Assembly (NCBI RefSeq): GCF_900102365.1
Contig: NZ_FOIN01000005.1
Span: 1-64,000, forward strand
DNA length: 64,000 nucleotides
Reading direction: 5' to 3'
From: Thomasclavelia cocleata
Lineage (GTDB): Bacteria > Bacillota_I > Bacilli_A > Erysipelotrichales > Coprobacillaceae
Shown: positions 30,851 to 61,473 of the stretch, piece by piece
How the letters are laid out: every line of letters starts with the position of its first letter
How positions within the stretch are numbered: the first letter of the stretch is position 1
Made by a program: the position numbers and the translations under genes
The notes under the pieces: model-generated
Told to the model about the DNA's origin: nothing
Databases searched by the model: none
Seen by the model: only the letters and a program-made list of their open reading frames with translations

Positions 30851-31263
30851 TTTAATTGCAATCTTTATAGTAAATTTAAAGAAAAGAGTAAATTGTTATC
30901 AAAGAATTTTTTATAATATCAGACATAATTATTTTATAGAAATGGTAGAATATTATATAGAAATGATTGGTTGCATTTTTTATAGTAAAAAATTGTAATG
31001 ATAATCATAGGCTTATTTTTGATGGTGATAATATTTATTATTGTATAATAAGCAATATAGTAACGATTTAGTAAAAAGTTGTTTAGATATGATAAGTTTA
31101 ATCAAGTATATTTGATTTTGGGATAAATGATTTAGAGGGGGGATACTAGAGGGTTAATGATAAGTGAGATTTTTGCATATATGTTATATTGATGTGGGAG
31201 ATTGATATGGGGATTAATATGGCAATGTTTTAAAAACAACGGAATTATATATAAATGGATAAT
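30851..31263. other. Gene-free spacer before the polysaccharide locus
   Basis: No coding frame was recognised. Purine-rich patches near 31135-31215 (GGGGGG, GTGGGAG) stand out against the AT background and end at a strong terminator, so a small untranslated RNA is possible. No known RNA family was identified. Confidence 0.4.
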
Positions 31264-31264
31264 T

Positions 31265-31313
31265 AAAAAGCCATAAACTCAATTAATTTTTATTGAGTTT
31301 ATGGCTTTTTTTT
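31265..31313. terminator. Strong bidirectional terminator left of the invertible segment
   Basis: A 19 bp perfect stem (31265-31283 with 31292-31310) around an eight-base loop, followed by T-run. It sits 17 bases left of the left inverted repeat and should stop transcripts leaving the segment leftward, as well as those arriving from upstream. Confidence 0.88.
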
Positions 31314-31329: not shown

Positions 31330-31354
31330 TTTCACAGAACTATTAATTCTGCGA
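31330..31354 (+). repeat. Left inverted repeat / recombination site
   Basis: It matches 32412-32436 in reverse complement over all 25 bases. It also has internal dyad symmetry: arms CACAGAA (31333-31339) and TTCTGCG (31347-31353), one mismatch, flank a seven-base asymmetric spacer CTATTAA. That is the build of a tyrosine recombinase core site. Confidence 0.92.
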
Positions 31355-31359
31355 CTCTT

Positions 31360-31387
31360 ATTATAGCACAAATAACTACAAAATCAA
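31360..31387 (-). promoter_or_regulatory. Invertible promoter, pointing left in this orientation
   Basis: On the minus strand: TTGATT (31387-31382), 16 bases, then extended -10 TGC-TATAAT (31368-31360). Initiation is expected near 31353, inside the left repeat. In this orientation the transcript meets the terminator at 31265-31313 within about 45 bases; after inversion it would run into the LoaP-like genes. Confidence 0.78.
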
Positions 31388-31475
31388 ACAAAATGTTATT
31401 TATCTTGCAAATCATTTATTAAATAAATTATTACTTTTATTTTTTTAAAACTTACTTTCATAAAGGAGAAAAAAT

Positions 31476-32423
31476 ATGCAAACAAATAAAAAATTTTTTT
31501 TAGTCACTAAAGAATGGCTTGAGTTAAAAAAGATGTCAGTAAAATACTCATCATATGTTAAATATGAAACAGTTATTTTAAAGCACATAATACCTTTTTT
31601 TGATGATTATACTATAGAACAAATTAATGATGATATAATTGTATCTTTTTTTAAAGAATTAATTGATACACAAAAATATTCTAATAGTACCCTTCATACT
31701 ATACGTTATGTTATGAAATCTATTTTAGAATATGCAGAAAAGAAATATTGTATTCAAACAATCAATTTTAGCTTTATTAAATTAAATCGGTCTAAGGGAA
31801 ATCTTAGAATTTTAAGTGAGAATCAAAAAATATTATTAGAAAAATATTGTTTTAATCATTATGAACCTATATCTATAGCTATTTTAATTGCTTTGTATGG
31901 AGGTCTTAGAATTGGTGAAATCTGTGCTTTGAAATGGGAAGATGTAGATTTAAATAATGGAATTATTACAGTTAGTAAAACTGTTGAAAGACTTAAAAAT
32001 AAAGAGAATATGGAATCTAAAACTATTTTAATGATTTTAGAGCCTAAAACCCAAACTTCAAAAAGAATTGTCCCAATACCAGTATTTTTAAAGGAATATA
32101 TACAAAATTACTATGATTATTTAACTGTAATTGATTCTAGCTATTATTTACTAACAAACAGTGAAAAAATCCCAGATCCTCGTACAATTCAAAATCAATT
32201 TCAAAGATTATGTCAGGATAATAATTTTCAAATCAATTTTCATTCATTAAGACATACTTATGCTACTCACTGTGTAATGCAGGAAGTGGATCTAAAGTCA
32301 TTAAGTGAAATGTTGGGACATTCTAATATTTCTACTACATTACAACTATATGTTCATTCATCAATTGAATTTAAAATGAATCAAATTAATAAGATCTCTG
32401 CACCTGTAATTTCGCAGAATTAA
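31476..32423 (+). CDS. Tyrosine recombinase (phase-variation invertase)
   Basis: A 315-residue integrase-family recombinase. The N-terminal SAM-like core-binding domain is residues about 5-95. The catalytic set is complete: Arg in GGLRIGEICALKW (near 144), HSLRHTYATH (near 260-269, His and second Arg), LGHSNISTTLQLYVH (His near 284, nucleophile Tyr near 294). AAAGGAGAAAAAAT precedes the ATG. Its last codons and stop fall inside the right inverted repeat. The gene is enclosed by the repeats with no other gene, which points to self-inversion. A weak promoter TTGCAA-17-TTATTA (31405-31433) may drive it. Confidence 0.93.
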   Translation: MQTNKKFFLVTKEWLELKKMSVKYSSYVKYETVILKHIIPFFDDYTIEQINDDIIVSFFKELIDTQKYSNSTLHTIRYVMKSILEYAEKKYCIQTINFSFIKLNRSKGNLRILSENQKILLEKYCFNHYEPISIAILIALYGGLRIGEICALKWEDVDLNNGIITVSKTVERLKNKENMESKTILMILEPKTQTSKRIVPIPVFLKEYIQNYYDYLTVIDSSYYLLTNSEKIPDPRTIQNQFQRLCQDNNFQINFHSLRHTYATHCVMQEVDLKSLSEMLGHSNISTTLQLYVHSSIEFKMNQINKISAPVISQN

Positions 32424-32436
32424 TAGTTCTGTGAAA
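32412..32436 (-). repeat. Right inverted repeat / recombination site
   Basis: The perfect reverse complement of 31330-31354. It overlaps the end of the recombinase gene (stop codon 32421-32423) and lies 21 bases before the first LoaP-like start codon. Flanking bases outside the 25 do not match, so the repeat boundary is sharp. Confidence 0.92.
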
Positions 32437-32457: not shown

Positions 32458-32958
32458 ATGTACTGGTATATAGTTCATATAAAACTTGAACGGAGTTCTA
32501 AACTAGTTAAATTTTTTAATCAACAGAATAATACAATAGCTTTCGTTCCTAAAATGGAGAGATGGTACAACATTAAGGGAAAGAAAAATTATATTATTAA
32601 GGATTTGTATCCTGATTATGTCTTTATTAAAAGTGAGATGGATCAATTAGAATTTAATGAAAGATTTAAAGAATTTTTTAAATCAATTGATGGCATTGCC
32701 CAGTTGTTAGAATTTGAAGATGTTTATGTTTTAAAAACTGAAGAGCAGATTTTAATGGAAAGATTACTTGATAATAAAAACATAATTAGACACTCAGTAG
32801 GAAACATAGTTAATTCAAAACTTATTGTTGAAAAAGGACCATTAGTCAATTTAGAAAACAAAGTTATTAAAATTGATCGACATCAAAGACTAGCGGTTTT
32901 AAAGAGTGATTTTTTCAACAAAATAACTGTTCCTTTAGAAGTTGTTAGTAAATCATGA
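32458..32958 (+). CDS. LoaP-like NusG paralogue 1 (antiterminator)
   Basis: A 166-residue NusG-family protein: an N-terminal RNA polymerase-binding domain opening with WYIVHI, with the YPDYVFIKSEM strand near 52-62. A C-terminal KOW motif GPLVNLENKVIKIDRHQRLAVL (in parts) follows near 123-144. The long linker and sequence style match LoaP, the specialised NusG that promotes readthrough across polysaccharide and antibiotic operons. The start at 32458 is six bases after GAGG; frames beginning at GTG 32431 would use the recombination repeat. First gene after the switch. Confidence 0.85.
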   Translation: MYWYIVHIKLERSSKLVKFFNQQNNTIAFVPKMERWYNIKGKKNYIIKDLYPDYVFIKSEMDQLEFNERFKEFFKSIDGIAQLLEFEDVYVLKTEEQILMERLLDNKNIIRHSVGNIVNSKLIVEKGPLVNLENKVIKIDRHQRLAVLKSDFFNKITVPLEVVSKS

Positions 32959-33565: not shown

Positions 33566-34132
33566 TTGTTGATAGTAGGAGCAGGAGGTCATGGGAGATG
33601 TTGTCTAGATATAGCTAGAGAATATTATGATCATATTGCTTTTCTTGATGATAATCATATTAATAATATGATTAATGATTGTAAAGTTATTGGACAGATT
33701 GATGATATGCGATTATATTGTTCTGAATATAAAGATATTGTTATTGCTATAGGCAATAACAAGCTTAGGAAACAATTATTTAATAAGGCAGTTGAATTAG
33801 GTTATAACTTAATATCATTAATATCGAATAAAAGTATTATTTCTAATTATGCAAATATTGATAAAGGAACAGTTGTTTTTCCTAATGCTGTAATTGAAGC
33901 AAATGTAACAGTTGGTAAAGGCTGTATTATTTCAACTGGAGCAATAATTGATCATGATGCTGTTGTTGGTGATTATTGCCACATTAATGCTTTAGCTGTA
34001 GTTTCATCAATGACTAAAATAACTGAATATACTAAAGTTGATTATGGCCAGGTTTATCGAAAAAAAGATATGGATGAAACATGGAAGGAAGAGTATGTAA
34101 AACAGTTTGGCGAAGAACCGAGCTTTTTTTAG
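33566..34132 (+). CDS. Sugar O-acyltransferase, PglD/NeuD family
   Basis: A hexapeptide-repeat acyltransferase of about 190 residues: Rossmann-like start LLIVGAGGHGRCCLDIA, then a left-handed helix with repeats such as NVTVGKGCIISTGAIIDHDAVVGDYCHI (in parts; near 110-137). It acetylates an amino or hydroxy sugar precursor. The family normally begins MKKLLIIGAGGHG. Here the codon at the Met position (33557-33559) is ATA, correctly spaced after GGGGGAG, and the next plausible starts are TTG at 33566 and 33569. So translation uses an unusual start. Confidence 0.88.
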   Translation: MLIVGAGGHGRCCLDIAREYYDHIAFLDDNHINNMINDCKVIGQIDDMRLYCSEYKDIVIAIGNNKLRKQLFNKAVELGYNLISLISNKSIISNYANIDKGTVVFPNAVIEANVTVGKGCIISTGAIIDHDAVVGDYCHINALAVVSSMTKITEYTKVDYGQVYRKKDMDETWKEEYVKQFGEEPSFF

Positions 34133-34146
34133 TTGGGAGGTAAATA

Positions 34147-34758
34147 ATGTATCAAAAAGGAATTAAAAGAATTCTAGATTTTATTCTAGCATTAAGTGGA
34201 CTTATTGTTTTAAGTCCTGTTTTTATTTTTCTATGTATTTGGATTAAGCTTGATAGTAAAGGACCAGTTTTGTTTAAACAAAAAAGAGTAGGAATTAATA
34301 AAACATATTTTAATATCTTGAAGTTTAGAACAATGTATATAGATACTCCTAAGGATATGCCAACCCATATGTTGAAAGATCCAGATCAGTTTATTACTAA
34401 AGCTGGTAAGTTTTTAAGAAAGACATCTCTAGATGAATTGCCACAAATTATTAATATCTTAAAAGGAGAAATGGCAATTATTGGACCAAGACCAGCATTA
34501 TGGAATCAAGATGATCTAGTTGATCAAAGAGAAAAATATCATGCTAATGATGTAAGACCAGGTCTTACAGGATGGGCACAAATAAATGGAAGAGATGAAC
34601 TAGAAATTCCCATAAAAGCAAGATTAGATGGAGAATATGTTAAACGTATCTCTTTTTTGTTTGATCTAAAATGTTTTTTTGGAACAATTACATCAGTACT
34701 AAAAAGTGATGGTGTAGTAGAAGGTGGAACAGGTTCAATAACTGGGGATAATAAATAA
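34147..34758 (+). CDS. Initiating sugar-phosphate transferase (PglC type)
   Basis: A 203-residue monotopic phosphoglycosyl transferase that moves a sugar phosphate to undecaprenyl phosphate and so begins repeat-unit assembly. One hydrophobic helix lies at residues 11-30, followed by GPVLFKQKRVG, KFRTMY, TSLDELPQ (catalytic Asp-Glu pair near 98) and GPRPAL plus GLTGWAQINGRDE near 140. It is the only initiating transferase seen in the window. TGGGAGG precedes the ATG. Confidence 0.93.
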   Translation: MYQKGIKRILDFILALSGLIVLSPVFIFLCIWIKLDSKGPVLFKQKRVGINKTYFNILKFRTMYIDTPKDMPTHMLKDPDQFITKAGKFLRKTSLDELPQIINILKGEMAIIGPRPALWNQDDLVDQREKYHANDVRPGLTGWAQINGRDELEIPIKARLDGEYVKRISFLFDLKCFFGTITSVLKSDGVVEGGTGSITGDNK

Positions 34759-35957
34759 TGAAAATATTAGTTATTTGTCAATACTATTATCCTGAGCCAT
34801 TTAAAATACATGAAATTTGTGAAGAACTAGTTAAAAGAGGGAATGAAGTAACAGTAATTACTGGAAGGCCTAATTATCCTGATGGTAATTTATTTCCTGG
34901 ATACGACAATCAAGATAAAATGAATGAAATAATTAATGGGATACATGTAATTAGGACAAAAATCCCATTGAGAGGAAATAATTCTATTTCTTTGGTAAGA
35001 AATTATTTTAGTTATCCACGATATGCTAAAAAAGAGATAAAGAAACTTGATAAAGAGTTTGATGTAGTGTTTGTGTATCAGTTATCACCAGTTTTTATGA
35101 TTAAACCTGCTTTATATTATAAAAAAAAATATGAAAAAAAAGTATATGTTTATTGTTTAGATTTATGGCCTGAATCGTTAAAGGTTCTTCATATAAAAGA
35201 AGCTAACCCTATATTTAAAGTTTTAAATTTAATTTGCAACAGACTTTATAAAAAGTGTGATTTTATTAGTGTAACATCACCAGCATTTATTAATTATTTA
35301 AATGAGATTAATAAAGTGGAACTAAATAAGTTAAGTTGTATTCCACAACATGGGGAAAACTTTTTTTTAAAGGTGAAGCCATATGAAAAACAGGACAAAT
35401 TAAATATTACTTTTGCAGGAAATATAGGAAAGGCTCAGGATTTTGAATGCTTGGTAAGAGCAATAGCTCAAATACCTGATAGCTATTATCACAAGTTAAA
35501 AATTACGATAATTGGCAGTGGCTCGTATGAAACGAAATTCAAACAGCAGGTAAAGGAAAATAAACTTGATAGTATATTTGATTTTACTGGTAGAAAAAAG
35601 ATTGGAGAACTTATATCTTATTATAATGATACATCATTATTTTTATTGTCTTTAGAAAAAAATAGTAATATTGGTAAAACTATTCCTTCTAAGTTACAGA
35701 CATATATGGCAGCGGGAAGAGGAATTATTGGATCAATTGATGGGACATCGGCAGATATAATCCATAATGCTAATGCTGGTATGATTTGTAGTGCTGGTAA
35801 TGATAAAGAACTGGCAAAAATAGTTATGGAGATGGTTGATGCAGATGATAATTTGATTAAGATATTGTCAAAAAACAGTCGAGACTATTTCATGAGCAAT
35901 TTTACGATTGATAAATATATAGATAAGATTTTAAAGAAATTGGAGGAACTGGGATGA
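34758..35957 (+). CDS. Glycosyltransferase GT4, WbuB-like
   Basis: A 399-residue retaining GT-B transferase: ICQYYYPEPFKIHEIC at the N terminus, EVTVITGRPNYPDG near 30, WPESLKVL near 137 and IPSKLQTYMAAGRGI near 310. The sequence style is that of WbuB, which in other loci transfers L-FucNAc and sits beside fnlA. Here the next gene is capE/fnlA, so L-FucNAc transfer is a fair inference. It overlaps both neighbours by one to four bases. Confidence 0.85.
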   Translation: MKILVICQYYYPEPFKIHEICEELVKRGNEVTVITGRPNYPDGNLFPGYDNQDKMNEIINGIHVIRTKIPLRGNNSISLVRNYFSYPRYAKKEIKKLDKEFDVVFVYQLSPVFMIKPALYYKKKYEKKVYVYCLDLWPESLKVLHIKEANPIFKVLNLICNRLYKKCDFISVTSPAFINYLNEINKVELNKLSCIPQHGENFFLKVKPYEKQDKLNITFAGNIGKAQDFECLVRAIAQIPDSYYHKLKITIIGSGSYETKFKQQVKENKLDSIFDFTGRKKIGELISYYNDTSLFLLSLEKNSNIGKTIPSKLQTYMAAGRGIIGSIDGTSADIIHNANAGMICSAGNDKELAKIVMEMVDADDNLIKILSKNSRDYFMSNFTIDKYIDKILKKLEELG

Positions 35958-36997
35958 ATCAATTTAAAGATAAAACATTGCTGATTACAGGAGGAACAGG
36001 ATCATTTGGTAATGCAGTATTAAACAGGTTTTTAGAAACAGATATCAAAGAAATCAGAGTGTTTTCTAGAGATGAATTAAAACAGGATAATATGAGACAC
36101 GTTTATCAGGCTAAATATCCTAGTGTTTTTCATAAACTTAAGTTTTATATTGGTGATGTAAGAGACATAAACAGTATAAAAAATGCTATGTATGGTGTTG
36201 ACTATGTATACCATGCTGCAGCTTTAAAGCAGGTACCTTCTTGTGAATTCTTTCCAATTGAAGCTGTTAAAACAAATGTTTTAGGAACTGAAAATGTATT
36301 AACAGCAGCAATAGAATGTGGAGTTAAAAGAGTAGTATGTTTAAGTACAGATAAAGCAGCATATCCTGTAAATGCAATGGGTACAAGTAAAGCAATGATG
36401 GAAAAGGTAATTGTAGCTAAATCTAGAACAGTAGACTCAGAAAAGACAAGTATCATGTGTACAAGATATGGAAATGTTTTGGCATCAAGAGGCAGTGTTG
36501 TTCCGCTTTTTATTAACCAGATAAAAGAAGGTAATCCTTTAACATTGACAGAACCAAGTATGACAAGATTTGTTATGACACTAGAAGAAGCAGTAGACTT
36601 AGTACTCTTTGCCTTTGAAAATGGAGAAAGTGGAGATATATTTGTACAAAAAGCCCCAGCTTGTACAATAGAAATCTTAGCTAAGGCTGTTAAAGAATTA
36701 TTTCATGCTGATAATGAAATAAAAGTAATAGGAATCAGACATGGTGAAAAGATGTATGAAACGCTACTAACTGATGAAGAATGTGCAAATGCAATAGATT
36801 TAGGAAACTTTTATCAAGTACCAGCAGATAAAAGGGATTTAAACTATGATAAGTACTTTTATGAAGGAATAGAGAAGAACAGATTAACTCAGTTTAATTC
36901 AAATAATGCTAAACTAATGGATATAGAAGAAGTAAAGAATAAGCTACTAGAAGTAAAACTTGTTCGAGAAGAATTATCAGGCTGGAGGAATAGATAA
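35954..36997 (+). CDS. capE: UDP-GlcNAc 4,6-dehydratase / 5-epimerase (CapE/FnlA)
   Basis: A 347-residue SDR enzyme, first step from UDP-GlcNAc towards UDP-L-FucNAc. The NAD loop TGGTGSFGNAVL lies near residue 12, FSRDELKQDNMRH near 36, and the region AALKQVPSCEFFPIEAVKTNV with STDKAAYPVNAMGTSKAMME (in parts; near 87-145) holds the MxxxK that replaces YxxxK. This matches CapE/FnlA/WbjB. Its pathway partners CapF and CapG lie 12-15 kb downstream. Confidence 0.9.
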   Translation: MNQFKDKTLLITGGTGSFGNAVLNRFLETDIKEIRVFSRDELKQDNMRHVYQAKYPSVFHKLKFYIGDVRDINSIKNAMYGVDYVYHAAALKQVPSCEFFPIEAVKTNVLGTENVLTAAIECGVKRVVCLSTDKAAYPVNAMGTSKAMMEKVIVAKSRTVDSEKTSIMCTRYGNVLASRGSVVPLFINQIKEGNPLTLTEPSMTRFVMTLEEAVDLVLFAFENGESGDIFVQKAPACTIEILAKAVKELFHADNEIKVIGIRHGEKMYETLLTDEECANAIDLGNFYQVPADKRDLNYDKYFYEGIEKNRLTQFNSNNAKLMDIEEVKNKLLEVKLVREELSGWRNR

Positions 36998-38169
36998 TGT
37001 CAAAGATATTATTTATTAATTCAGTCTGCAATAGTTCTACAGGAACAATATGCAAAAACTTATATAAAGTTGCTAAAGAAGCAGGGCATGAATGTTGTAT
37101 AGCGTATGGGAGAGGGAATACTCCAGAAGGATACAATACAATAAGAATTGGTAATAAATTAGATTTTTATTTACATGTATTAAAGGCTAGAATATTTGAT
37201 GCAAGCGGATTTGGTAGTAAACATGCAACAAAGGAATTCATAAAAAGGATTGAAGAATTTAAGCCAGATATTATCCATTTACATAATATACATGGATATT
37301 ATGTGAATATTGAAATACTTTTTAAATATTTAAAAGATCATCCAGAGATAAAGAAAATATGGACACTGCATGACTGTTGGGCATTTACAGGGCATTGTGC
37401 ATATTACACATATGCTAAATGTGATAAATGGCAAATATGCTGTAATGTAAAATGTCCAAATAAATGGGAATATCCTAAAACATTATTTTCTAATATTGAA
37501 AGTAACTTTAATAAGAAAAAAGAAGTATTTAGTGGTATTGAAAATATGATCTTGATAACTCCTAGCAAATGGTTAAAAAGTGAAGTTGAGAAATCATATT
37601 TAAAAAATTATCAAGTTGAGGTTATAAACAATGGTGTGGATACGAATGTTTTTAAACCTACATCATCAGATATAAAAAAACAATATAATATAGAAAATAA
37701 AAGAGTAATTTTAGGTGTAGCATCTGTATGGGATAAAAGAAAAGGGTTAGATACTTTTATTGAATTATCAAAACAGCTAAATAGTGAATATCAAATTGTT
37801 TTGATTGGATTAAATAAAAAGCAGATTAAAATTTTACCAAAAAATATTATCGGTATTTCTAGAACTGAAAATATTCAGGAATTAGTTAAATGGTATAGTG
37901 TAGCAGAAGTGTTTTTTAATCCAACATTAGAAGATAATTATCCAACTGTAAATTTAGAAGCAATTGCATGTGGAACACCAGTAATTACTTTTGATATAGG
38001 AGGAAGTCCAGAAAGTGCTAAAATATATGGGCGAGTAATTAATTTATTTGATGATTTATTTTCTATATTAAAAAAAAGAGAAAGATATAATTATGGATTT
38101 TTTTATATTTCAATAGAAGAAAAATATAATGAGTATATAAATTTATATAGTAGAAAGGAAAAAATATGA
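36997..38169 (+). CDS. Glycosyltransferase GT4
   Basis: A 390-residue GT-B protein. NSVCNSSTGTICKNL at the start, the region LHNIHGYYVNIE with TLHDCWAFTGHCAYY near 105-132, a Cys-rich loop CDKWQICCNVKCPNKWEYP (near 138-156), and NPTLEDNYPTVNLEAIACGTPVI near 309 define a WcaC-like subgroup. It overlaps its neighbours by one and four bases. The sugar is unknown. Confidence 0.88.
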   Translation: MSKILFINSVCNSSTGTICKNLYKVAKEAGHECCIAYGRGNTPEGYNTIRIGNKLDFYLHVLKARIFDASGFGSKHATKEFIKRIEEFKPDIIHLHNIHGYYVNIEILFKYLKDHPEIKKIWTLHDCWAFTGHCAYYTYAKCDKWQICCNVKCPNKWEYPKTLFSNIESNFNKKKEVFSGIENMILITPSKWLKSEVEKSYLKNYQVEVINNGVDTNVFKPTSSDIKKQYNIENKRVILGVASVWDKRKGLDTFIELSKQLNSEYQIVLIGLNKKQIKILPKNIIGISRTENIQELVKWYSVAEVFFNPTLEDNYPTVNLEAIACGTPVITFDIGGSPESAKIYGRVINLFDDLFSILKKRERYNYGFFYISIEEKYNEYINLYSRKEKI

Positions 38170-39338
38170 ATTTAGTATTTTTAACTAATATTTTAACTCC
38201 ATATAGATTGAGTTTTTTTGATCAATTATATAAAAATTGTGAAAAAAATGGTATTAATTTTTATGTTTTAGTTATGGTGGGAGAAAAATCGGATAGACCA
38301 GGATGGGAATATAAAAAATTCCGAAGAAAATATACAGTTCTTTTAGAAAATAAAACTATTTTAGTAGGAAAAATATATTTTCATTTTAACAAAAATCTTT
38401 CAGAGATCCTATTGAAATTAAGTCCTGATATAGTTGTATGTAGTGGTTCATATCTGCAACCATCAGTAATAAAAACATTAAAATTTAAAAACAAATTTAA
38501 TTATAGAGTATATTTTTGGTCTGAATCACATTTATTAGAAAAAAGAAATTATAATAAAATTATTTTAAAATTAAGAGAAATTATAAGGATTAATATTTTA
38601 CAAAAATTTGATGGTTTTCTTTATGCAGGTAAATATTCAAAAGAGTTTATAGATGTATATAAATCAAAAAAAGCTAGGTTATTTTTGTTATATAATTCAA
38701 TCGAGGATGATATTTTTTATTCTAAAAATCAACTACTTAGACAAAATAGGAATGATTTAAGGAAAAAATATGATATATCTAATGAAAAATATATGTTCTT
38801 TTCGCCAATTCGTTTAGAGGTGGTAAAAGGTTTTGATGTCTTTTTAAAAGGTATAAGAAGTTTAGATAACGAAATAAAAGAAAAAATTATTTTTGTAGTA
38901 GCTGGAAATGGTTCATTAAGAGATAAGTTAGTAATGATAGCAAAAAAATCAAATATTGATGTTCGTTTTTTAGGACAGTGTAATCAAGATAGCATAATAG
39001 AGCTATATGCAATGTCTGATTGCTTTTTATTACCATCAATTTCTGATTCTAATCCCTTGACTGTGGTCGAAGCATTATGGTCTGGGTTACCTATTTTAAT
39101 TTCTAAACATGTAGGCAATGGTCCTGAAACTGTAGAAGAGGGGATTAATGGGTATGTATTCGATTATGAGTACCCAGATACCATAATTGATTCAATTACT
39201 AAGTTGGTTAACTCTTCGTCTATTTGGAATGATGTAGCAAGATTAAAATCAATTGAGATTGCACAAGAAAAGTATAATAAAAACAATATTTGTAATGATT
39301 TAATAGCATATTTTATGGAGATTTTTAATAATGTTTAA
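38166..39338 (+). CDS. Glycosyltransferase GT4
   Basis: A 390-residue transferase. FLTNILTPYRLSFFDQL at the N terminus is typical, FSPIRLEVVKGFDVFLKG near 214 begins the donor-binding domain, and LPSISDSNPLTVVEALWSGLPILIS near 293 holds the E(x7)E pattern. It is coupled by short overlaps to its neighbours. The sugar is unknown. From here to 46500 the coding sequence is even more AT-rich than the first genes of the locus. Confidence 0.87.
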   Translation: MNLVFLTNILTPYRLSFFDQLYKNCEKNGINFYVLVMVGEKSDRPGWEYKKFRRKYTVLLENKTILVGKIYFHFNKNLSEILLKLSPDIVVCSGSYLQPSVIKTLKFKNKFNYRVYFWSESHLLEKRNYNKIILKLREIIRINILQKFDGFLYAGKYSKEFIDVYKSKKARLFLLYNSIEDDIFYSKNQLLRQNRNDLRKKYDISNEKYMFFSPIRLEVVKGFDVFLKGIRSLDNEIKEKIIFVVAGNGSLRDKLVMIAKKSNIDVRFLGQCNQDSIIELYAMSDCFLLPSISDSNPLTVVEALWSGLPILISKHVGNGPETVEEGINGYVFDYEYPDTIIDSITKLVNSSSIWNDVARLKSIEIAQEKYNKNNICNDLIAYFMEIFNNV

Positions 39339-40746
39339 AATAAAAAAAAATAATCTTATTATATTTTTATTTGTTCTATTTTGTATTAATCTTTACATAA
39401 TATTTTTTTTCCAAAATAATATTTCAGTTATTTTAAAAAAAAATTTATATTTTGATATTATTTATTTGAATATATCTTTAATACTTCTTTTTATAATATA
39501 TAATTGCTTAAAGTTAGATTTAATTGATCCTTTAGTTTTTGTTTCTATAATATATATCATGATGTTTTTTTTCTGTCCAATTTATGATATTTATACTGAA
39601 AATACAATTGTTTTTGGAGTTCATGATTTATTTGATTATGGTATTTCTGGAAGCTTCTATGCATTATTAGGATATATTGCTTTTATTTTTTCATATACCT
39701 TTTTTAGATTAAAGTATAGAAAGAGGAAATCAAAAAATATAAAACGAATGATATATATAAATACTTCTAGAATAGCGAGAATTGCTTTTATTGTATGGTG
39801 TTTATGTTTTTTGATAGAAATGCTAATTATTGTGATTGTAAAGGGATATAACATTTCTTATATTTTGACACTTGGATTTATTGGAGAAAATCAGATTCAA
39901 TATGAATTTAGTAACAGTATGTTAGGATTTATAGATCAAGCAACTCGAGCAATAGTACCACTTTATTTAATATATTATTATTTTGGAGAAAAAAAGATAC
40001 TTAAATATATTATGTTTATTTTGAATTGTATAATAATTTTAATAACTGGTTTTCGATATTTAGTGGTTATTTTCGTTTTATCGGTAATGATTTTTGAATT
40101 TATTTTAGAAAACAAAAGGATTAGAATTGATAAAATATTGTTTATTGGTTTAATGTTGGCTCTGATAATATCAATGATAGGTTACACTAGAAATTCAATG
40201 AGGAGTGGGATAGGATCAAGTTTAGAAGGATTTACTCTAAATACTATCTTAGAAACTATAATGGATAATTTTGGAATCTATAAATGTTATTATGCAGTTA
40301 TAAAAGCAACACCTAATTTAACTCCATATATCTTTGCTGATCAAATGATTGTTTACACTGCAATATTATTTGTACCTAGAGTGTTATGGAAAGGTAAACC
40401 TGGTAATCCAGGTACAACAGTTCAACTTTACGGATTGAATAAAGTCGCAGTATTAAGTGGTTATGCATATCCATGTTTGGGTGAATATTATTATAGTTTT
40501 GGCCTGATTGGAATAATATTTTTTATGGGATTGTTTGGTTGGTGGATGTCCAAAACCATAGTAAAATATAGAAAATCAGTAAGAGATCCATTTAATTTTA
40601 TGATATATAGTTTAATAGTGGCTGTAACATTTCAATTATTAATCCGAGGTTATACACCAACAAACTTTTATCTTGTGATGGTTTTGATCATTCCATGTAT
40701 ATTATTTAAAAAATTAAATAAGAAAGTAGTTGTGACTAATGAATAA
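39331..40746 (+). CDS. wzy: Wzy-type repeat-unit polymerase
   Basis: A 471-residue membrane protein with about ten to twelve hydrophobic segments and a large loop near residues 285-370 (RSGIGSSLEGFTLN, RVLWKGKPGNPGTT). This layout fits O-antigen polymerases that join undecaprenyl-linked repeat units outside the membrane. It is followed by a flippase gene, as usual. Primary sequence of polymerases is poorly conserved, so the call depends on topology and context. Confidence 0.85.
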   Translation: MFKIKKNNLIIFLFVLFCINLYIIFFFQNNISVILKKNLYFDIIYLNISLILLFIIYNCLKLDLIDPLVFVSIIYIMMFFFCPIYDIYTENTIVFGVHDLFDYGISGSFYALLGYIAFIFSYTFFRLKYRKRKSKNIKRMIYINTSRIARIAFIVWCLCFLIEMLIIVIVKGYNISYILTLGFIGENQIQYEFSNSMLGFIDQATRAIVPLYLIYYYFGEKKILKYIMFILNCIIILITGFRYLVVIFVLSVMIFEFILENKRIRIDKILFIGLMLALIISMIGYTRNSMRSGIGSSLEGFTLNTILETIMDNFGIYKCYYAVIKATPNLTPYIFADQMIVYTAILFVPRVLWKGKPGNPGTTVQLYGLNKVAVLSGYAYPCLGEYYYSFGLIGIIFFMGLFGWWMSKTIVKYRKSVRDPFNFMIYSLIVAVTFQLLIRGYTPTNFYLVMVLIIPCILFKKLNKKVVVTNE

Positions 40747-42184
40747 GTTAATAAAAAATTACATCTATAATGTGGGCTATCAAATATTTTTAATTGTTGT
40801 TCCTGTTATTACTGCGCCATATTTAGCAAGAATTTTAGGCCCAACTCAGTTAGGTATATACAGCTATGTTAATTCTGTAACGAGTATAATTACTACTGTT
40901 GGATTGCTAGGGCTTCAAAGTTATGCTTATAGAGAAATTGCATATGTTAGAGATAATAATATCATGTTTACAAAAACAGTTTCCCAAATTTTTCTTTTAA
41001 GGATTTTTATATTTGTTATTATATCTATTTTTTATGTTCCTTATTGTTACATTAGTGATTATTCGACATATTTTTTTGTACAGTATTTGCTTGTGTTATC
41101 AGTTTTTTTAGATGTTTCTTGGATATTTATTGGTATGGAAAATTTAGGGATTGTAGCCTTTAGAAATTTCGTAGCAAAATTAATTACAGTGATTGGAATA
41201 TTTATTTTTATAAAAAGTAGGAACGATTTATGGATATATTTCTTTCTATTTTCATTTGTTACATTCATTACAACTATAAGTATGTTTCCTATTGTAAAAA
41301 AATACATAAAATTTTCAAATATAAGTTTAAAAGATATATTTAATCATATTATTCCATCAATAAAGCTTTTCATACCACAAATTGCAACTATGTTATATCT
41401 TCAATTTGACAAGATAATGTTACAAATTTTAGGTTCTGGTAGTGAGCAAGTAGCTTTTTATGATCAAGCTGAAAAATTTATTAATATTCCTTTAACAGTA
41501 ATTACCGCTTTATGTACTGTTATGGTTCCAAGGATAGCAAATTTATATGCAAATAAAAATTTTCAAAGTATTGAATATTATATGAATAAAACTATTAAAT
41601 TTTCATTATTTTTGTCTGTTCCTATGATGTTTGGTCTTATTTCAATTTCAGAAGAATTGATTCCATGGTATTTAGGAAGTTCTTTTCAAAAGGTTTCTTT
41701 GTTAGTGATATTTCTTTCACCTTTGACTATTATGAATTCAATTTCTAATGTTTTTGGTGCACAATATTTGACAGCTACAAATAAAACTCAGGCTTTAACG
41801 ATTTCATACTATAGTGCAGCAATTCTAAACATATTTTTAAATGCATATTTGATTCCAACTTTTGATTCAATAGGGACTGCAGTAGCAACAATAATTAGTA
41901 TTTTGTTTTCTATTATTATTCAATATGTGTTTGTTAAACGTGATTTGATTTTTAATTTTAATTTAAAAAATATATTAAATTATTTTTTTGCATCAATGTT
42001 AATGGGTATTATAGTTAAATTTATTGGTATTTCTTTAGGCTCCCATTTGTATACAACTTTTTTACAAATTTTAATAGGTGCGTCAATTTACATGATGCTA
42101 ATGATATTATTTAAGGATGAAATATGTTTATTATTATTAACAAGAATAAAAAAATTAAATAGAAAAAGAGTTAAGGAAGATTAG
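40739..42184 (+). CDS. wzx: Polysaccharide flippase, Wzx type (first)
   Basis: A 481-residue MOP-superfamily protein with about 12-14 membrane helices. The N terminus YNVGYQIFLIVVPVITAPYLARILGP (in parts) with QLGIYSYVNSV is the Wzx opening pattern. It moves the lipid-linked repeat unit across the membrane. It overlaps wzy by eight bases. A second flippase gene lies at the end of the window. Confidence 0.9.
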   Translation: MNKLIKNYIYNVGYQIFLIVVPVITAPYLARILGPTQLGIYSYVNSVTSIITTVGLLGLQSYAYREIAYVRDNNIMFTKTVSQIFLLRIFIFVIISIFYVPYCYISDYSTYFFVQYLLVLSVFLDVSWIFIGMENLGIVAFRNFVAKLITVIGIFIFIKSRNDLWIYFFLFSFVTFITTISMFPIVKKYIKFSNISLKDIFNHIIPSIKLFIPQIATMLYLQFDKIMLQILGSGSEQVAFYDQAEKFINIPLTVITALCTVMVPRIANLYANKNFQSIEYYMNKTIKFSLFLSVPMMFGLISISEELIPWYLGSSFQKVSLLVIFLSPLTIMNSISNVFGAQYLTATNKTQALTISYYSAAILNIFLNAYLIPTFDSIGTAVATIISILFSIIIQYVFVKRDLIFNFNLKNILNYFFASMLMGIIVKFIGISLGSHLYTTFLQILIGASIYMMLMILFKDEICLLLLTRIKKLNRKRVKED

Positions 42185-42187
42185 GAT

Positions 42188-42943
42188 ATGTATTTGAAAA
42201 TATTAATTTTAGGGGATAGTATTAGTGAAGGATTGGGTTCGAAAAAATATAATTATTCCAATTTTTTAAAAGAAAATTTATATAAAAGAGGAATTAATGC
42301 AGAAATTTTCAATTTGGCATATTCAGGAACTACTATTAAATATGTTGAAAGTATTAAAAAAAATATTCTGGAAATTAATCCAGATGTAACAATTCTATTT
42401 TATGGTAATGTTGATGGTATGTTACGGCCAAATATTAACCACTATCCAAACTATTTTGGAATCTTGCCAAAGAGATATCAAAAAAATGGTATGCTTAACC
42501 CACGTCCATTTTATTCAGGTCTATGGTATAAAAAATTAATTCAAATGATTGATTCATTTATAAGAACAATCTTAAATAAAATATTATTAAAATTTCAAGG
42601 AAGTTACACTTGGGTTTCACTTGATGATTTTAAGCATACTTATGATAATGTCATAAATTATTTATTAAGTATTAATTCAAAAGTTATTTGTACTTCTACT
42701 GTGTGTATAGATGAAAATTTTTTTCCTGGAACACTTGAAAGTTATAAAAAATTTAATAATATTATACAATCTATATCACTAGGAATAAAAAATGTTTGTT
42801 TTTTTGATATATTTAATGAATTACAGAGTTATAAAATAGAAGACGTATTTTTAGCAGATCATTTTCATCTTTCTATAAACGGTTATAAAATTTTAGCAAA
42901 TAGATATGCTGATTTAATAGATGAAATGTATAGATGTAGGTAG
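42188..42943 (+). CDS. SGNH/GDSL hydrolase family protein
   Basis: A 251-residue protein. Block I LILGDSISEGLGS is at residues 5-17 with the catalytic Ser, block III FYGNVDGML is near 78, and block V ADHFHLSINGY near 231 carries the Asp and His. No signal peptide is visible, so it would act in the cytoplasm, for instance in trimming or moving an acyl group on a precursor. It starts three bases after wzx. Confidence 0.83.
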   Translation: MYLKILILGDSISEGLGSKKYNYSNFLKENLYKRGINAEIFNLAYSGTTIKYVESIKKNILEINPDVTILFYGNVDGMLRPNINHYPNYFGILPKRYQKNGMLNPRPFYSGLWYKKLIQMIDSFIRTILNKILLKFQGSYTWVSLDDFKHTYDNVINYLLSINSKVICTSTVCIDENFFPGTLESYKKFNNIIQSISLGIKNVCFFDIFNELQSYKIEDVFLADHFHLSINGYKILANRYADLIDEMYRCR

Positions 42944-43000
42944 GTGTGAAAATAAAATTTGTATTAAAATATGTAAAATCATTCTAAAAATGTTTTAATT

Positions 43001-43028
43001 AATAAAAATAACATATTTTTATTAATTA
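43001..43028 (+). repeat. Hairpin just upstream of the group II intron
   Basis: ATTAATAAAAAT/ATTTTTATTAAT forms a perfect 12 bp stem around ACAT-like sequence, five bases before the intron's GTGTG. It could be the terminator of the previous operon part; some bacterial group II introns insert after such hairpins. Confidence 0.5.
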
Positions 43029-43032
43029 GATA

Positions 43033-44359
43033 GTGTGCCAGGTATGGCACGAATTCAGTTGGAGATAAATCAACCACAGGTAATTACCGCCAAGTGTAGT
43101 GAACTACAAGTCATTAACAGTAATGTTGAGGATGGAGGCAGTGGTGTAGCAATTCTTTCGAATGTATGAACAGAAATCTGATATAAGGCTAAATGATGGA
43201 TGAGATTGCTATCCAAACCTAAGTTCAAAAGGTAAATGTAAAACCAAGATAGTAAATCAGGGCGTTGTGAAAGAAACAGGATTTGTGAATTACCCTTGGA
43301 GGTCTTGTGGACGATGAAATCCAATATCTTTAAAATCATTTTGGGAGATAAGCAGATGATAGCAATATCTTCGTGAAAAGTGAGATGGCAGCAAATCGAG
43401 TGATGAAGTCGGTCACCTCATGGCTAGAGAGAAAATTATTTCTAAAGGTCAGTGTGACCAAACAAAGGTAGTGTTGATTTGCAGATTAATTTACAAGGTT
43501 TAGTCAAATTAAGATAATTGTAAAAAAAGTAAAACAAATTAAAATATATTCAAATTTCATTAACAATAAAAGCAAATTAAAATAACAGTTTATTTATTCC
43601 GATTTCTTTTTGACAGAGAGCCTAAGCATTTTATGCAATAAAAAGGTGCCATAAGCTCAAAAAAAGAGCTTATGACTAATTAATAAGCAAAAATGATCTT
43701 CCTTGTCAAAAGTTTTTTCAGTATAAATAGTTATCATAAAGTGCTTATATAATTGTCAAATTATTTTAATTTTCAGTTAGCTTATTTTGAATAAAGTCAT
43801 TAATTTAAAATTCGGGTTAACAAGGTAGTACGACCAACGAAAAGCAGTTATCTAGGCTTTACATATTTTAAGAACTTATCAAAATGGGAGTGTATACCTA
43901 CAAAGAAAAGTCTGTATGACAAATGTTGAAAAAAGTTCATTCGAAAGAAGTGCCTAGCCTATTGTAATATCAATACCGTTTTACTAGGATAAATCAAATC
44001 GTCAAAGGATGGATAAACTATTATTGAATCGGGAAGATGAAAGTATTCATTGAAGAATTTGGATAATGGCTAAGACATAAAATAAGGGTCTTATCACTTC
44101 AGTGATGAGTAAATCTACTCGGTAGCAAATACAAGAGTTGGTGGTATAAGCAAGCAAATGGAAATGTAGTTAATTTCTTACTAAATGCAGAAGTACTAGC
44201 TATAAGAAAAGAGGAAAGACCTGTACTGGTCAATCCACCATTATACTATTTAAGATAAGTTGTATTAACATATAAATGTAGCGCCATATAGTATGCGAGA
44301 CCCATACGTATGGTTCAATGAGAGAGGCGAAAATAGGAATTATTTTCCCTCTATTCTAT
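43033..44359 (+). mobile_element. Degenerate group II intron
   Basis: The 5' end GTGTGCCAGGTATGGCACG is a typical intron start. The 3' end shows a domain V-like stretch, GCGAGACCCATACGTATGG-TTCAATGAGAGAGGCG (44297-44332). It is followed by a domain VI-like hairpin ending CCTCTATTCTAT (about 44348-44359). Total length about 1.3 kb is well under the usual 1.9-2.5 kb because most of the reverse transcriptase frame is gone. The part at 43500-43800 looks unrelated to intron sequence. It cannot mobilise itself; self-splicing is uncertain. Confidence 0.8.
43820..44256 (+). pseudogene. Remnant of group II intron reverse transcriptase/maturase
   Basis: A broken frame with several stops matches the C-terminal maturase domain of LtrA-type proteins: NQIVKGWINYY, IGKMKVFIEEFG, WLRHKIRVLSL and later SKYKSWWYKQANG can be read (around 43990-44165). 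The reverse transcriptase domains are missing. The internal stops and frameshifts rule out a working enzyme. Confidence 0.8.
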
Positions 44360-44402
44360 TTTGGGTTGGAAGAAAGAACTATCAAATGGAGGAAAAATAT
44401 AG

Positions 44403-45665
44403 ATGAAAATAATTGTAGCACATCCTGGTAAACAACATTCTTACAGAACTGCTTCTGCTTTAAAAAAAAGGGGATTTTTATTCAAATATATTACAACTAT
44501 TTACGATTCTGAAAAATGTTTTTCAATAAAAATTTTAAAACATTTATTGCCTTATAACGAAAAAAAAAGGATAACAACGAGAAGAAATATAGATTTAGAT
44601 GATGATGATGTTATACAGTTTTGTGTTATAAGTGGTTATATAGAAGCTTTTTTGTCTAGATTTTCTAAAATAAATTATATTTATAGATTTTGGCAACAGT
44701 TTAATGCAGATAGATTTGGAAGAAAAGTTGCAATATATGCGATTAAAAATAATGTAGATGCAATAATTATTTATGATTCAAATGCTTATAAGTGTTTTGA
44801 AATATTAAAAAAAAAGAGAAGTAAAATTGTAAGAATAATGGATGTTTCGCATATTAATAGAATATATCAACATGAAATAGTATTTAATCTAAGAAATAAT
44901 GATGTTAATGATAATGAAGATTGTTTGCCTTATTTATTTCCAAAATGGTATTTAAAAAAAATTATTAAAGAAAATGAAAACACTGATTATTTTCTTGTAC
45001 CTTCTCATTTCGTTGCAAAATCATTGGAATATAGTGGAATAAATGAAAAAAATATTTTTGAAATACCATATGGTTCAAATTTTAGTTTTAGTTCGAAAAT
45101 AAAATTAAAAAAAATTAATAAAATTGTGTTTTTATTTGTAGGAAAAATAAGTTTTGCAAAAGGAATTACTTTTTTGTTACAAGCATTTGAAAAAATATCT
45201 AATAATAATGTGGAATTAAGATTAGTTGGGGAATATGATGATTCTAAGTGGTTTTATAAAAAATATTGTGATAAAAAAAATATATGTTTTGTTGGAAAAA
45301 AATTACATAATGAGGTTTTAGAAGAATTAAGTAGTGCAGATGTTTTTATTTTACCTTCATTAATGGAGGGGATGTCTCTTGCTGGTTTAGAGGCAATCAG
45401 TTGTGGTTTACCAATTATTTGCACAAATAGTTCTGGTTTGGATAAATTTGTTGATGAAAGAATAAATGGATTTATTGTAGAACCTAAAAATATTGATCAA
45501 TTATATGAAAAACTTAAATGGTGTATAGAACATAAAAATAATTTGATGACTATGGGAGAATATTCTCTTGAAAAATCTAAAATGTGTACTTGGGAAAATT
45601 ATGAGAATAATTTTATAAATACAATAATAGATATTTTAAATAGGGAGGGAATTTTTTATGAATAA
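44403..45665 (+). CDS. Glycosyltransferase GT4
   Basis: A 420-residue transferase. The N-terminal half is unusual (IIVAHPGKQHSYRTASALKKRG). The donor-binding half is ordinary: FLFVGKISFAKGITFLLQAF near 240, LRLVGEYDDS near 270, and LPSLMEGMSLAGLEAISCGLPII near 318. TGGAGGAAAAATAT precedes the ATG, after the intron. It overlaps licD by eight bases. Confidence 0.87.
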   Translation: MKIIVAHPGKQHSYRTASALKKRGFLFKYITTIYDSEKCFSIKILKHLLPYNEKKRITTRRNIDLDDDDVIQFCVISGYIEAFLSRFSKINYIYRFWQQFNADRFGRKVAIYAIKNNVDAIIIYDSNAYKCFEILKKKRSKIVRIMDVSHINRIYQHEIVFNLRNNDVNDNEDCLPYLFPKWYLKKIIKENENTDYFLVPSHFVAKSLEYSGINEKNIFEIPYGSNFSFSSKIKLKKINKIVFLFVGKISFAKGITFLLQAFEKISNNNVELRLVGEYDDSKWFYKKYCDKKNICFVGKKLHNEVLEELSSADVFILPSLMEGMSLAGLEAISCGLPIICTNSSGLDKFVDERINGFIVEPKNIDQLYEKLKWCIEHKNNLMTMGEYSLEKSKMCTWENYENNFINTIIDILNREGIFYE

Positions 45666-46500
45666 TAATGAATTAAGAAAAGTACAACTTCTCCAATTAA
45701 AACTTGCATTAAAAGTAAAAGAAATTTGTGATAGACACAAAATAAATTATTTTCTTATTGCAGGTTCATTATTAGGAGCCGTTAGACATAATGGATTTAT
45801 TCCATGGGATGATGATTTAGATATTGGTATGCTTCGGAAAGATTATGAAAAATTTTTATTTTTTGCTAATAAAGAATTACCACATTATATTTTTTTACAA
45901 AATTGGTATACAGATAAAAAAATGGCGTTACCATATACAAAACTTCAATTAAAAAACACAAAATATATTGAACAAAATATTCAGCGAGCAGAAATTGAGA
46001 AAGGTATTTTTATAGATATATTTCCATTTGATAATGTTCCTCAGAAAAAGAATGATTTAAAAAAACAAAAAATACTTTCTTTTTTTTATACAAGAGTTTT
46101 ATTGATGAAATCAAATTATATTTTATGGAAGAAGAATCAATATTTAAAAAGATTTATCTATATTTTTATTAAGATAATATCTTTTTTTTATAGTTATAAT
46201 TTTTTGCACAAAAAATTAGAAGATATTATGAAAAAATATAATAATGTACCTTCTAAGTTTATTGTTAATATAGGTGGCTCTTATGGATATGATAAAGAAA
46301 TTTTATTTTTTGAGTGGATTAATAAGACAATAGATTTAAATTTTGAAAATAATCAATTTTCTTGTCCAATTATGTATAAAAGATATTTGCAGCATTTTTA
46401 TGGAAATTATTTAAAATTCCCACCTGAAAATGAACGATATAATAGACATAATATCGTTATTATTGATTTTGGAAATTATAAAGATATTAGTGATTTATAA
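45658..46500 (+). CDS. licD: LicD-family phosphotransferase
   Basis: A 280-residue LicD protein. The core is VKEICDRHKINYFLIAGSLLGAVRHNGFIPWDDDLDIGMLRKDYEKF (in parts; residues 18-64): GSLLG plus the WDDDLD metal site of nucleotidyltransferase-fold enzymes. LicD proteins transfer phosphocholine or similar phospho-groups from a CDP carrier to glycans. The donor here is not known. The gene ends the first half of the locus. Confidence 0.9.
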   Translation: MNNNELRKVQLLQLKLALKVKEICDRHKINYFLIAGSLLGAVRHNGFIPWDDDLDIGMLRKDYEKFLFFANKELPHYIFLQNWYTDKKMALPYTKLQLKNTKYIEQNIQRAEIEKGIFIDIFPFDNVPQKKNDLKKQKILSFFYTRVLLMKSNYILWKKNQYLKRFIYIFIKIISFFYSYNFLHKKLEDIMKKYNNVPSKFIVNIGGSYGYDKEILFFEWINKTIDLNFENNQFSCPIMYKRYLQHFYGNYLKFPPENERYNRHNIVIIDFGNYKDISDL

Positions 46501-47652: not shown

Positions 47653-48883
47653 ATTTTTGACAACATAAACTTTAACGGTGGAAACATTTCTTATGATGGT
47701 GGTAGTATTTTACTTTTATCTTTTCTAAAAAAATACAATCTCTTATCTCAATTATGTTCCATCTCTTTTAACAACACTAGAAAATTACTTAAATATTCCA
47801 ATTCTGATATCACTTGTCAAATTATTTTACGTAACTTATTGGATTATTTTAATCAAGCTGAACAGTTAGCACTTATTGATGATCCGCTTTTATCTCAATG
47901 TTTTAATGCCTGTTTGCAACCTACTTTATCTAGATTCTTTGATAGATTGATATTAAAACGAATATGGCTCTTAAAGAATATGTTCAAAAACTTGGCTACG
48001 AATATGTCAACAGACATGGGGATAACATCATTCTTGATGTTGATTCGACAAAAACAATAATTAACGGACATCTGGAAGGATCTGCATATATTTTTCATTA
48101 TGGTATCAATGGATATAATATAAAATTATTACTAAGTTCTCATTTTAGAACTGGATCAGCATATTCATCAAATGGATTTATTAATGAATTAAAGGAAGTT
48201 TTATCACACCTTGATAGAAAAAAATTTATTTCTATAAGAGGTGATAGTGCCTTCTATAATGTTGAATTCATGGATTATATGCATCATGAAGACATCCAAT
48301 ACTATATTAGAGCCAAAAATTATATAAAAATTCAAAATAAAATTATTGAGCAATTAGCTAATGAAGGGATAAACTATTTAAATTATACTCATCAAGAACC
48401 CTATTATGGAGAAATTGAATATTCACTTCAAAATTTATCGACACCATGTAGATATATCTTTAAAGTATTTCTCTCACAAGACAAGTAATTAACAATGTTT
48501 CTTGTTATATATTGTATAATCACAAATGATATGAATAAATCATATGAAGAAATTTGTGATTTTTATGAAGAAAGAGGGAATTCAGAAAACTTCACAAAAG
48601 AATTAAAGGATGACTTTAATGGTAACAATGTAGGACATCATGATTTTGAAAAAATTGTTTTCAGTTCATGATTGCATCACTATGTTATAACATCTATCAT
48701 ATTTTTAGACTAATTGTATTAGAAGGCACAGATCTATTAATGCGTATGAATTCATTTAGAAATAAATATCAAAAAATAGCAGTAAAAGTTGTGCGTCACG
48801 CGAGAAAAATGAATTTATCATTAGTAGTGCATATAGATATAAAAAAAGAATTCATAAAATACTATCAAAAAATACAAATCTGA
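47653..48883 (+). pseudogene. IS1380-family transposase, decayed
   Basis: Four pieces in different frames read through an IS1380 transposase in order. They are: FNGGNISYDGGSILLLSFL to PTLSRFFDR (47668-47950); YVQKLGYEYVNRHGDNIILDVDST with RGDSAFYNVEFMDY (47964-48488); EERGNSENFTKELKDDF (about 48568-48620); and CYNIYHIFRLIVLEG with KIAVKVVRHARKMNL (48668-48883). At least three frameshifts or stops separate them, so it is inactive. The catalytic Asp stretches DVDST and RGDSAF are still legible. Terminal repeats could not be set with confidence. Confidence 0.85.
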
Positions 48884-49419: not shown

Positions 49420-50565
49420 ATGAAAATACTAATAACAGGTGCTAATGGATTTGTAGGCAAGAATCTGGTTAGTACATTAAAGAATATCAAAGACGGTAAA
49501 GACAGAACTCGTAATATAGATATTGAAGATATCTATAGCTATGATGTTGATAATACCATTAATGATTTAAAGAAGTATACAGGTGACTGTGATTTTGTCT
49601 TTCATTTAGCTGGTATCAATAGACCTAAAGATATTAGTGAATTTTATCAAGGGAATGTAACATTTACAGAAACATTATGTTCTTTATTGAAAGAACATAA
49701 TAACAAAAGTCCAATATTAATTAGTTCTTCAATTCAGGCTTCAAAAGACAATGACTATGGTAAAAGTAAAAAAGAAGGTGAAGAATATCTTTTAAATCAT
49801 GGTAAAAAAATGAATTCAAAAGTATATATTTACAGACTTGCTAATCTGTTTGGTAAGTGGTGTAGACCTAATTACAACAGTGTAACAGCAACATGGTGTT
49901 ATAATGTTGCTAATGGAAAAGATATTCAAATCAATGATCCTAATGTTGAATTACCTTTATGCTATATTGATGATGTAGTAGATGAATTTATAAATGCATT
50001 AGAAGGACATCCAGCAGCATGTAAAGAAGGAATATATGAGGTTACTCCAGTTCATTACATTAAATTAGGTGAATTAGCTGATATCATCAAATCATTTAAA
50101 GAATCAAGAGGGACATTGAGTGTACCAAATATGAAAGAAGGAAGTTTGGAAAAGAAATTATATAGTACGTATTTAAGCTATTTACCAAAAGATAAATTCA
50201 GCTATCCATTAAAGATGAATATAGATCAAAGGGGATCATTTACTGAATTTATAAAGACAGAGGAATATGGACAGGTAAGTGTGAATGTATCAAAACCAGG
50301 GATAACCAAAGGACAGCACTGGCATCACAGTAAAAATGAAAAGTTTTTAGTAGTAAGTGGAAAAGGATTGATTCAGTTTAGAGATATATATAGTGATGAA
50401 GTGATAGAATATTATGTAAGTGGAGATAAACTAGAAGTAATAGATATCCCAACAGGGTATACTCATAATATAATTAATATTGGTGAAACTGATATGGTAA
50501 CAATAATGTGGGCAAATGAAAAGTTTGATCCAGAGCATCCAGATACATATTATGAGGAAGTATAA
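49420..50565 (+). CDS. capF: UDP-2-acetamido-2,6-dideoxy-hexulose reductase (CapF/FnlB)
   Basis: A 381-residue bifunctional-looking protein: an SDR domain (ILITGANGFVGKNL at the start; SSSIQASKDNDYGKSKKEGEE near 102-122 with YxxxK) and a C-terminal cupin (residues about 265-381; KGQHWHHSKNEKFLVVSGKG holds the metal ligands). Both halves are typical of CapF/WbjC, second enzyme of UDP-L-FucNAc synthesis. AGAGGATT precedes the ATG. It begins the second half of the locus after the IS relic. Confidence 0.92.
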   Translation: MKILITGANGFVGKNLVSTLKNIKDGKDRTRNIDIEDIYSYDVDNTINDLKKYTGDCDFVFHLAGINRPKDISEFYQGNVTFTETLCSLLKEHNNKSPILISSSIQASKDNDYGKSKKEGEEYLLNHGKKMNSKVYIYRLANLFGKWCRPNYNSVTATWCYNVANGKDIQINDPNVELPLCYIDDVVDEFINALEGHPAACKEGIYEVTPVHYIKLGELADIIKSFKESRGTLSVPNMKEGSLEKKLYSTYLSYLPKDKFSYPLKMNIDQRGSFTEFIKTEEYGQVSVNVSKPGITKGQHWHHSKNEKFLVVSGKGLIQFRDIYSDEVIEYYVSGDKLEVIDIPTGYTHNIINIGETDMVTIMWANEKFDPEHPDTYYEEV

Positions 50566-50670
50566 AGAAAAAACACTTTTATCAAAGTATATAATAATGA
50601 AGGATAAAATATCGTATTGAAACGATAGACCAGTTTGGGTATTATATATACATGATAGGAAGTGATAGAT

Positions 50671-51301: not shown

Positions 51302-51335
51302 CTTATCTTTTATTAATGGAAAATAGAGGTAGAAA

Positions 51336-52520: not shown

Positions 52521-52604
52521 TAACATTAAATATTAAAATGAAATTAAGAGTTAGCATTATTAATCATGATAACATGATAATAAAATAATGAAAGGGGATA
52601 GTTG

Positions 52605-59175: not shown

Positions 59176-59191
59176 TTAATAGGAGATTGAT

Positions 59192-60175: not shown

Positions 60176-60298
60176 TTGGAAAAAGAATAAAAAGTAAATT
60201 GATAAATTTGATGAATCATTAATATTAAAAAGATTAGATGGGTATTGGTTATTTTAAAGCAGTATGATTGATTTTAATAAGTTAGAGGAGTTAAATAA

Positions 60299-61303: not shown

Positions 61304-61473
61304 ATAAAATATGCAAAATAGAAGATTGCTATAGTTTCAGCATTATATAAATATAATATTTTTAGATATATCTTTCGCTGAAATATAATTAAATGAAATG
61401 TAAAAACAGTTATAAAATTGTTGATTATTTATAAATATTTGATATTTTAAAGTGTAATATTTTGGAGGAAATG

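Follow-up and report, generated by a model that had tools for sequence, protein, structure and literature searches.

Genes and sites at the locus

The window, meaning the whole stretch of 64,000 nucleotides that was analysed, contains a 1107-bp segment bounded by inverted repeats and followed on its right by two NusG-like genes and a long series of polysaccharide genes. From left to right the features are:

31265-31310, no strand assigned: intrinsic-terminator hairpin with a 19-pair stem and an 8-base loop, an A-tract on one side and a T-tract on the other
31330-31354, plus strand: left inverted repeat and recombination site, TTTCACAGAACTATTAATTCTGCGA, with its 8-7-8 core at 31332-31354
31360-31387, minus strand: outward promoter TTGATT-N16-TATAAT with a TG extended -10, transcription start predicted near 31353, inside the repeat
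31388-31475, plus strand: 5' region of the recombinase gene with the ribosome binding site AAAGGAG, recognised by its sequence and its conservation in loci L070-L072
31476-32423, plus strand: tyrosine recombinase of 315 amino acids, wholly within the segment, its stop codon inside the right repeat
32412-32436, minus strand: right inverted repeat and recombination site, matching the reverse complement of the left repeat at every base
32458-32958, plus strand: NusG1, a LoaP/UpxY-like NusG paralog, first gene beyond the segment
32955-33452, plus strand: NusG2, likewise a LoaP/UpxY-like NusG paralog, its first 4 bases shared with NusG1
33566-46500, plus strand: polysaccharide genes, among which 43114-43286 bears the signature of a group II intron
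49420-62550, plus strand: further glycan genes, after a transposase remnant at 47964-48488

The complete tyrosine recombinase gene that the first-pass annotation placed between the repeats is there, with intact domains and the full catalytic set. The protein is full length, with matches to PF00589 (1.4e-27) and to the N-terminal SAM-like domain (4e-10), and the residues R145, K191, H256, R259, H282 and Y292 are invariant in an alignment of 14 sequences. This R-K-H-R-H-Y set together with the C-terminal catalytic domain defines a tyrosine site-specific recombinase. Judged by its sequence the enzyme should be active in the source strain, and the gene presumably has its own promoter within 31388-31475. 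A housekeeping XerC or XerD recombinase was considered and rejected, the NCBIfam equivalog scores being 89.5 against a cut-off of 335 and 69 against 330 bits. Two contigs of the same genome, C80 and C19, carry homologues of the recombinase, neither of them flanked by a convincing site pair.

The homology of NusG1 starts at the ATG at 32458, past the repeat, while the mechanical start of the open reading frame, a GTG at 32431, falls inside it. NusG1 and NusG2 are about 32% identical, and the tandem pair is found together in nearly all related loci. The best NCBIfam match of both is LoaP (NF033641) with scores of 94.8 and 92.8, below the cut-off of 125; the genes are therefore LoaP-like, as first described, without being full members of the family.

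The genes in 33566-46500 encode a PglD/NeuD-type acetyltransferase, an initiating sugar transferase, GT4 glycosyltransferases, a Polysacc_synt_2 dehydratase/epimerase, Wzy, Wzx, a GDSL esterase and LicD, and those in 49420-62550 a UDP-GlcNAc 2-epimerase, epimerases, GT2 and GT4 glycosyltransferases and a pyruvyl transferase. The earlier estimate, glycan genes over about 30 kb, is roughly right in extent, with the qualification that the cluster is interrupted by the group II intron, recognised by its D1-D4 signature, and by the remnant, which is of a DDE transposase. Two terminator-like hairpins on the plus strand, at 34104-34124 and 34198-34217, lie inside the first polysaccharide genes and are possible targets of NusG-type antitermination. 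The Rfam search over the window gave nothing at the switch and no family relevant to a LoaP-type antitermination hairpin. The sequence before the left repeat, at about 30930-31260, was considered as a regulatory leader and rejected as such, being a degenerate copy of a reading frame that is open in L070-L072.

Recombination sites, promoter and terminator

The two repeats are 25 nt long, 100% complementary and 1057 nt apart; the 64-kb window has no longer perfect inverted repeat of such spacing. In 30 random sequences from an order-1 Markov model, each as long as the window, the longest repeat was 21 bp and the mean 16, so that the pair proposed initially exceeds every control. Each repeat contains a core, TCACAGAA-CTATTAA-TTCTGCGA, of structure 8-7-8 with one arm mismatch, the general form of the core site being TCRYAGAA-N7-TTCTRCGA. 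These are the only two sites in the 64-kb window with more than 13 of 16 matches to the arm consensus. The two inverted arms and the asymmetric 6-8 bp spacer, the same in both partners, that characterise core sites of tyrosine recombinases are all present. The asymmetric CTATTAA spacer had been recognised at the outset; the arms, then given as 7 bases, are here scored as 8, a near-equivalent description. A search of the source genome with the core pattern yielded no further pair and no more matches than the control, and hence no additional inverton of the same type.

The 7-base spacer occurs in 31 forms over 35 loci, none of them palindromic, and is the same at both ends of the locus in 33 of the 35. 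Between partner sites, 0 of 231 spacer positions and 46 of 528 arm positions are mismatched in the 33 score-aligned pairs (Fisher p = 5e-8, an approximate value because some of the loci are close relatives). The repeats were detected at a threshold of at least 16 of 20 matches with mismatches allowed at any position, which lifts identity overall and partly conditions the spacer test, and by itself gives no bias to the spacer over the arms. Strand exchange by tyrosine recombinases demands matching spacers, and the constancy of the spacer within a locus fits this demand. The sites thus follow a clear code of constant arms and private spacers.

Of the remaining two loci, L084 appears to have been scored in a slipped register. 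In the other, L072 (about 4849-4870, genome G007), the promoter-proximal site is shorter than its partner, which may mean that inversion is disabled in G007 or that the assembly is in error. In L082, L087 and L099 the site together with a following T-run resembles an intrinsic terminator, and the site may double as a terminator there.

An extended -10 promoter within the segment, part of the original description, was located on the minus strand from 31387 to 31360. It faces away from the glycan genes, through the left repeat and into the hairpin, and the segment thus has inverted repeats flanking a promoter, as an invertible promoter should. The number of promoter-like matches in the region (14, with 21.8 expected) is not above chance, and the support for the promoter therefore comes from relatives, which keep it in the same position next to the repeat, with the -10 ending a few bases inside. 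Across 316 genomes of the order the TATAAT-plus-site pattern turned up 18 times, and the reversed control gave few hits. The promoter is predicted to be strong.

The hairpin has a folding energy of -25 kcal/mol in context. The 19 bp stem had been noted correctly; its distance outside the left repeat is 19 bases and not 17. With an A-tract on one flank and a T-tract on the other, it is plausibly bidirectional. A hairpin is found at the same place in L070-L073, L077, L079, L080, L082 and L100, with differing sequences.

Conservation and inversion among relatives

A search for the recombinase in 196 relatives gave 44 loci, which were taken with their flanks; a single-protein search of contigs had given one close relative only, G002. 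The order recombinase, NusG1, NusG2, polysaccharide genes is found in about 20 of these loci, the repeats enclosing the recombinase, and congeners as well as more distant members of the family and the order share this design. Also conserved are the direction and place of the promoter, the terminator beyond one repeat and, beyond the other, the NusG and polysaccharide genes. The recombinases of relatives with the same promoter position are just 42-59% identical to that of the window. In a class-wide profile search the relatives of the recombinase outside the order were mostly without a site pair in the short flanks obtained, L134 and L135 having one.

That the segment flips, as suggested from the single sequence, is strongly supported by the comparison of two congeneric genomes, G083 (L092) and G074 (L096). 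Here the segment of 1144 bp lies in opposite orientation with 96.2% identity, while the flanks, 8961 bp upstream and 1375 bp downstream with the NusG set rightward, are direct and 95.7% identical. The breakpoints fall in the inverted repeats. Adjoining the start region of NusG1 is the outward promoter in L096 and the 3' end of the recombinase gene in L092; a further genome, G153 (L094), shares the L092 form. G074 and G083 belong to another family of the order, with recombinases 42-43% identical to that of the window.

Among the NusG-linked recombinase loci, four of about 20 (L081, L086, L096 and L107) have the recombinase pointing away from the NusG genes, here called ON, and about sixteen have the form of the window. 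Both orientations are thus found between the congeneric genomes and over the homologous loci, in a comparison between species with one genome each. Together, the L092/L096 pair and the four ON loci indicate that both forms are real products of inversion at the repeats.

Short versions of the segment, lacking the recombinase, also occur. In G012, of the same family, all six well-matched NusG2 loci (L114-L119) have a promoter and a site pair upstream, and all six segments face OFF in the assembly. Five are short, 159-375 bp, without recombinase; the sixth, L117, is 4.46 kb long and holds a recombinase and a transposase-like open reading frame. Short versions in ON orientation were found in G005 (L120) and G192 (L121), one in each. 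G012 thus has several NusG-headed loci with invertible promoters of their own, whereas the genome of the window has one such inverton. Each polysaccharide locus of G012 has its own 7-base spacer, the arm sequences are shared among the sites and there is one close homologue of the recombinase. The shared arms and private spacers suggest that this one recombinase may act in trans on several promoters without cross-recombination between them.

The proposed switch, its alternatives and known systems

The segment is very probably a self-contained invertible promoter cassette, or inverton, in which the recombinase flips the 1107 bp and thereby switches the NusG pair and the capsule-type genes. The recombinase would bind the 8-7-8 cores in both 25-bp repeats and synapse the sites, and strand exchange over the 7-base spacer would invert the segment. 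In the given form the strong extended -10 promoter is predicted to fire outward into the terminator, which is the OFF state. In the inverted form it would adjoin GCAAAAGAAATGAGG of NusG1 at the junction, start transcription within the repeat, some dozens of bases upstream of NusG1, and drive the NusG pair and the polysaccharide genes. The recombinase would then point at the terminator, where its transcripts would be stopped. The NusG pair probably prevents transcription from stopping within the putative long operon; this role as processive antiterminators is suggested by the likeness to UpxY and LoaP. Judged from the gene content, the cells probably switch a surface polysaccharide coat ON and OFF.

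Alternatively, a once invertible cassette could now be fixed, with a silent or inactive recombinase, a promoter facing away and glycan genes read by leakage from the recombinase promoter. The three nearest relatives, L070, L071 and L072, share the OFF-facing orientation, and locked forms do occur: besides the shortened site of L072, the catalytic domain of the ON-form recombinase of L086 (9512-10477) is interrupted by an in-frame TAG, which likely makes that locus a locked-ON switch. The window, however, has an intact recombinase, two perfect sites and a consensus-like promoter, parts that decay would be expected to erode, and G074 and G083 represent live inversion among wider relatives. A fixed cassette is very unlikely.

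Under the cassette reading the window had been called the OFF form. This is upheld for the strong outward promoter and not for full silence. The recombinase and NusG1 are co-directional and no terminator was found between them, so that read-through from the recombinase may give a basal level of the operon, and high/low may be a better description than ON/OFF. The same arrangement would also allow the reverse logic, where the given orientation, the commonest among the assembled relatives, is the expressed one, by way of a recombinase transcript that reaches NusG1, and expression of the operon falls on inversion. This is very unlikely, as the promoter that is both strong and conserved faces outward, inversion sets it just ahead of NusG1, and the outward promoter is the only switchable part of the short invertons. 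A weaker version, low against high, is compatible with the invertible promoter cassette as well.

It is extremely improbable that the recombinase and repeats are a small mobile unit that integrated beside NusG, inversion being incidental: a single recombinase between inverted repeats, the existence of integrases of the same type and the swollen L117 segment with its transposase-like open reading frame would agree with this, but the place ahead of NusG1 is constant in about 20 loci across the order, the outward promoter has a fixed position, the spacer varies by locus and matches within it, recombinase-free short versions head other NusG pairs, synteny is kept with inverted orthologs, and no cargo or empty-site variation was found among the loci compared.

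The invertible promoter cassette combines properties of several known systems. As in the Hin system of flagellar phase variation, the recombinase and the promoter both lie within the flipping segment. The H segment of Salmonella is about 1 kb and carries the recombinase gene with the promoter that it turns, and Hin, which controls flagellin, is a serine recombinase acting at hix sites with Fis; the window differs by its tyrosine recombinase, its 8-7-8 core sites and its NusG-headed polysaccharide genes. Hin is the recombinase of an invertible flagellar locus (PMC11868660).

Phase-variable capsules of gut bacteria are best known from Bacteroides. In Bacteroides fragilis the capsule loci, several per genome, have UpxY antiterminators of the NusG family (PMC7819879). 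The likeness is in the invertible promoters ahead of a NusG-family gene and polysaccharide genes, with six such loci in G012. In Bacteroides the Mpi recombinase acts in trans on short segments and UpxZ partners UpxY, whereas in the window the recombinase is inside the segment, there are two tandem NusG-like genes and the host belongs to Erysipelotrichales. LoaP proteins are specialised NusG paralogs adjoining the long operons they serve (PMC7819879); the NusG proteins of the window differ in scoring below the cut-off and forming a tandem pair.

Providencia stuartii has a fimbrial locus with an 844-bp invertible segment that encloses a recombinase open reading frame between 14-bp imperfect repeats (PMC5903667). 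A recombinase gene inside the segment and an adjoining surface-structure locus are common to both; the differences are the host, a gammaproteobacterium, and the fimbriae, with no NusG or polysaccharide genes reported. The enzyme is read here as tyrosine-type, the text itself saying recombinase only. Clostridioides difficile has RecV-driven switches, of cwpV and of the flagella (PMC5903667, PMC5386303), and shares inversion of the tyrosine-recombinase type, surface structures as targets and a Gram-positive gut host; RecV acts in trans on short segments from outside them. In a survey of 209 sequencing datasets, just a single sample from class Bacilli had a signature of inversion (PMC5903667).

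The literature search, of partial coverage and so weak evidence on this point, gave no paper joining the design to Erysipelotrichales. The Hin-like layout with a tyrosine recombinase and a Bacteroides-like target is, as far as the papers found go, a new combination for this order. It represents a complete and widely kept switch of Bacteroides logic whose flipping segment includes its own recombinase, a compact and testable unit that predicts switchable polysaccharide loci in many gut species, a matter of relevance to phage resistance, strain variation and recognition by the immune system. For a wider proposal the chances are about even: that capsule switching is lineage-wide in Erysipelotrichales and convergent with Bacteroides, built-in tyrosine-recombinase cassettes existing beside short arm-sharing invertons flipped in trans, with private spacers barring recombination between loci.

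The genome of the window carries another NusG2-like gene, followed by a sugar transferase, on contig C29 at about 500-1274 (L126/L128). No site pair was found there; the upstream promoter resembles the outward promoter of L107, and the locus is perhaps the remnant of a lost inverton.
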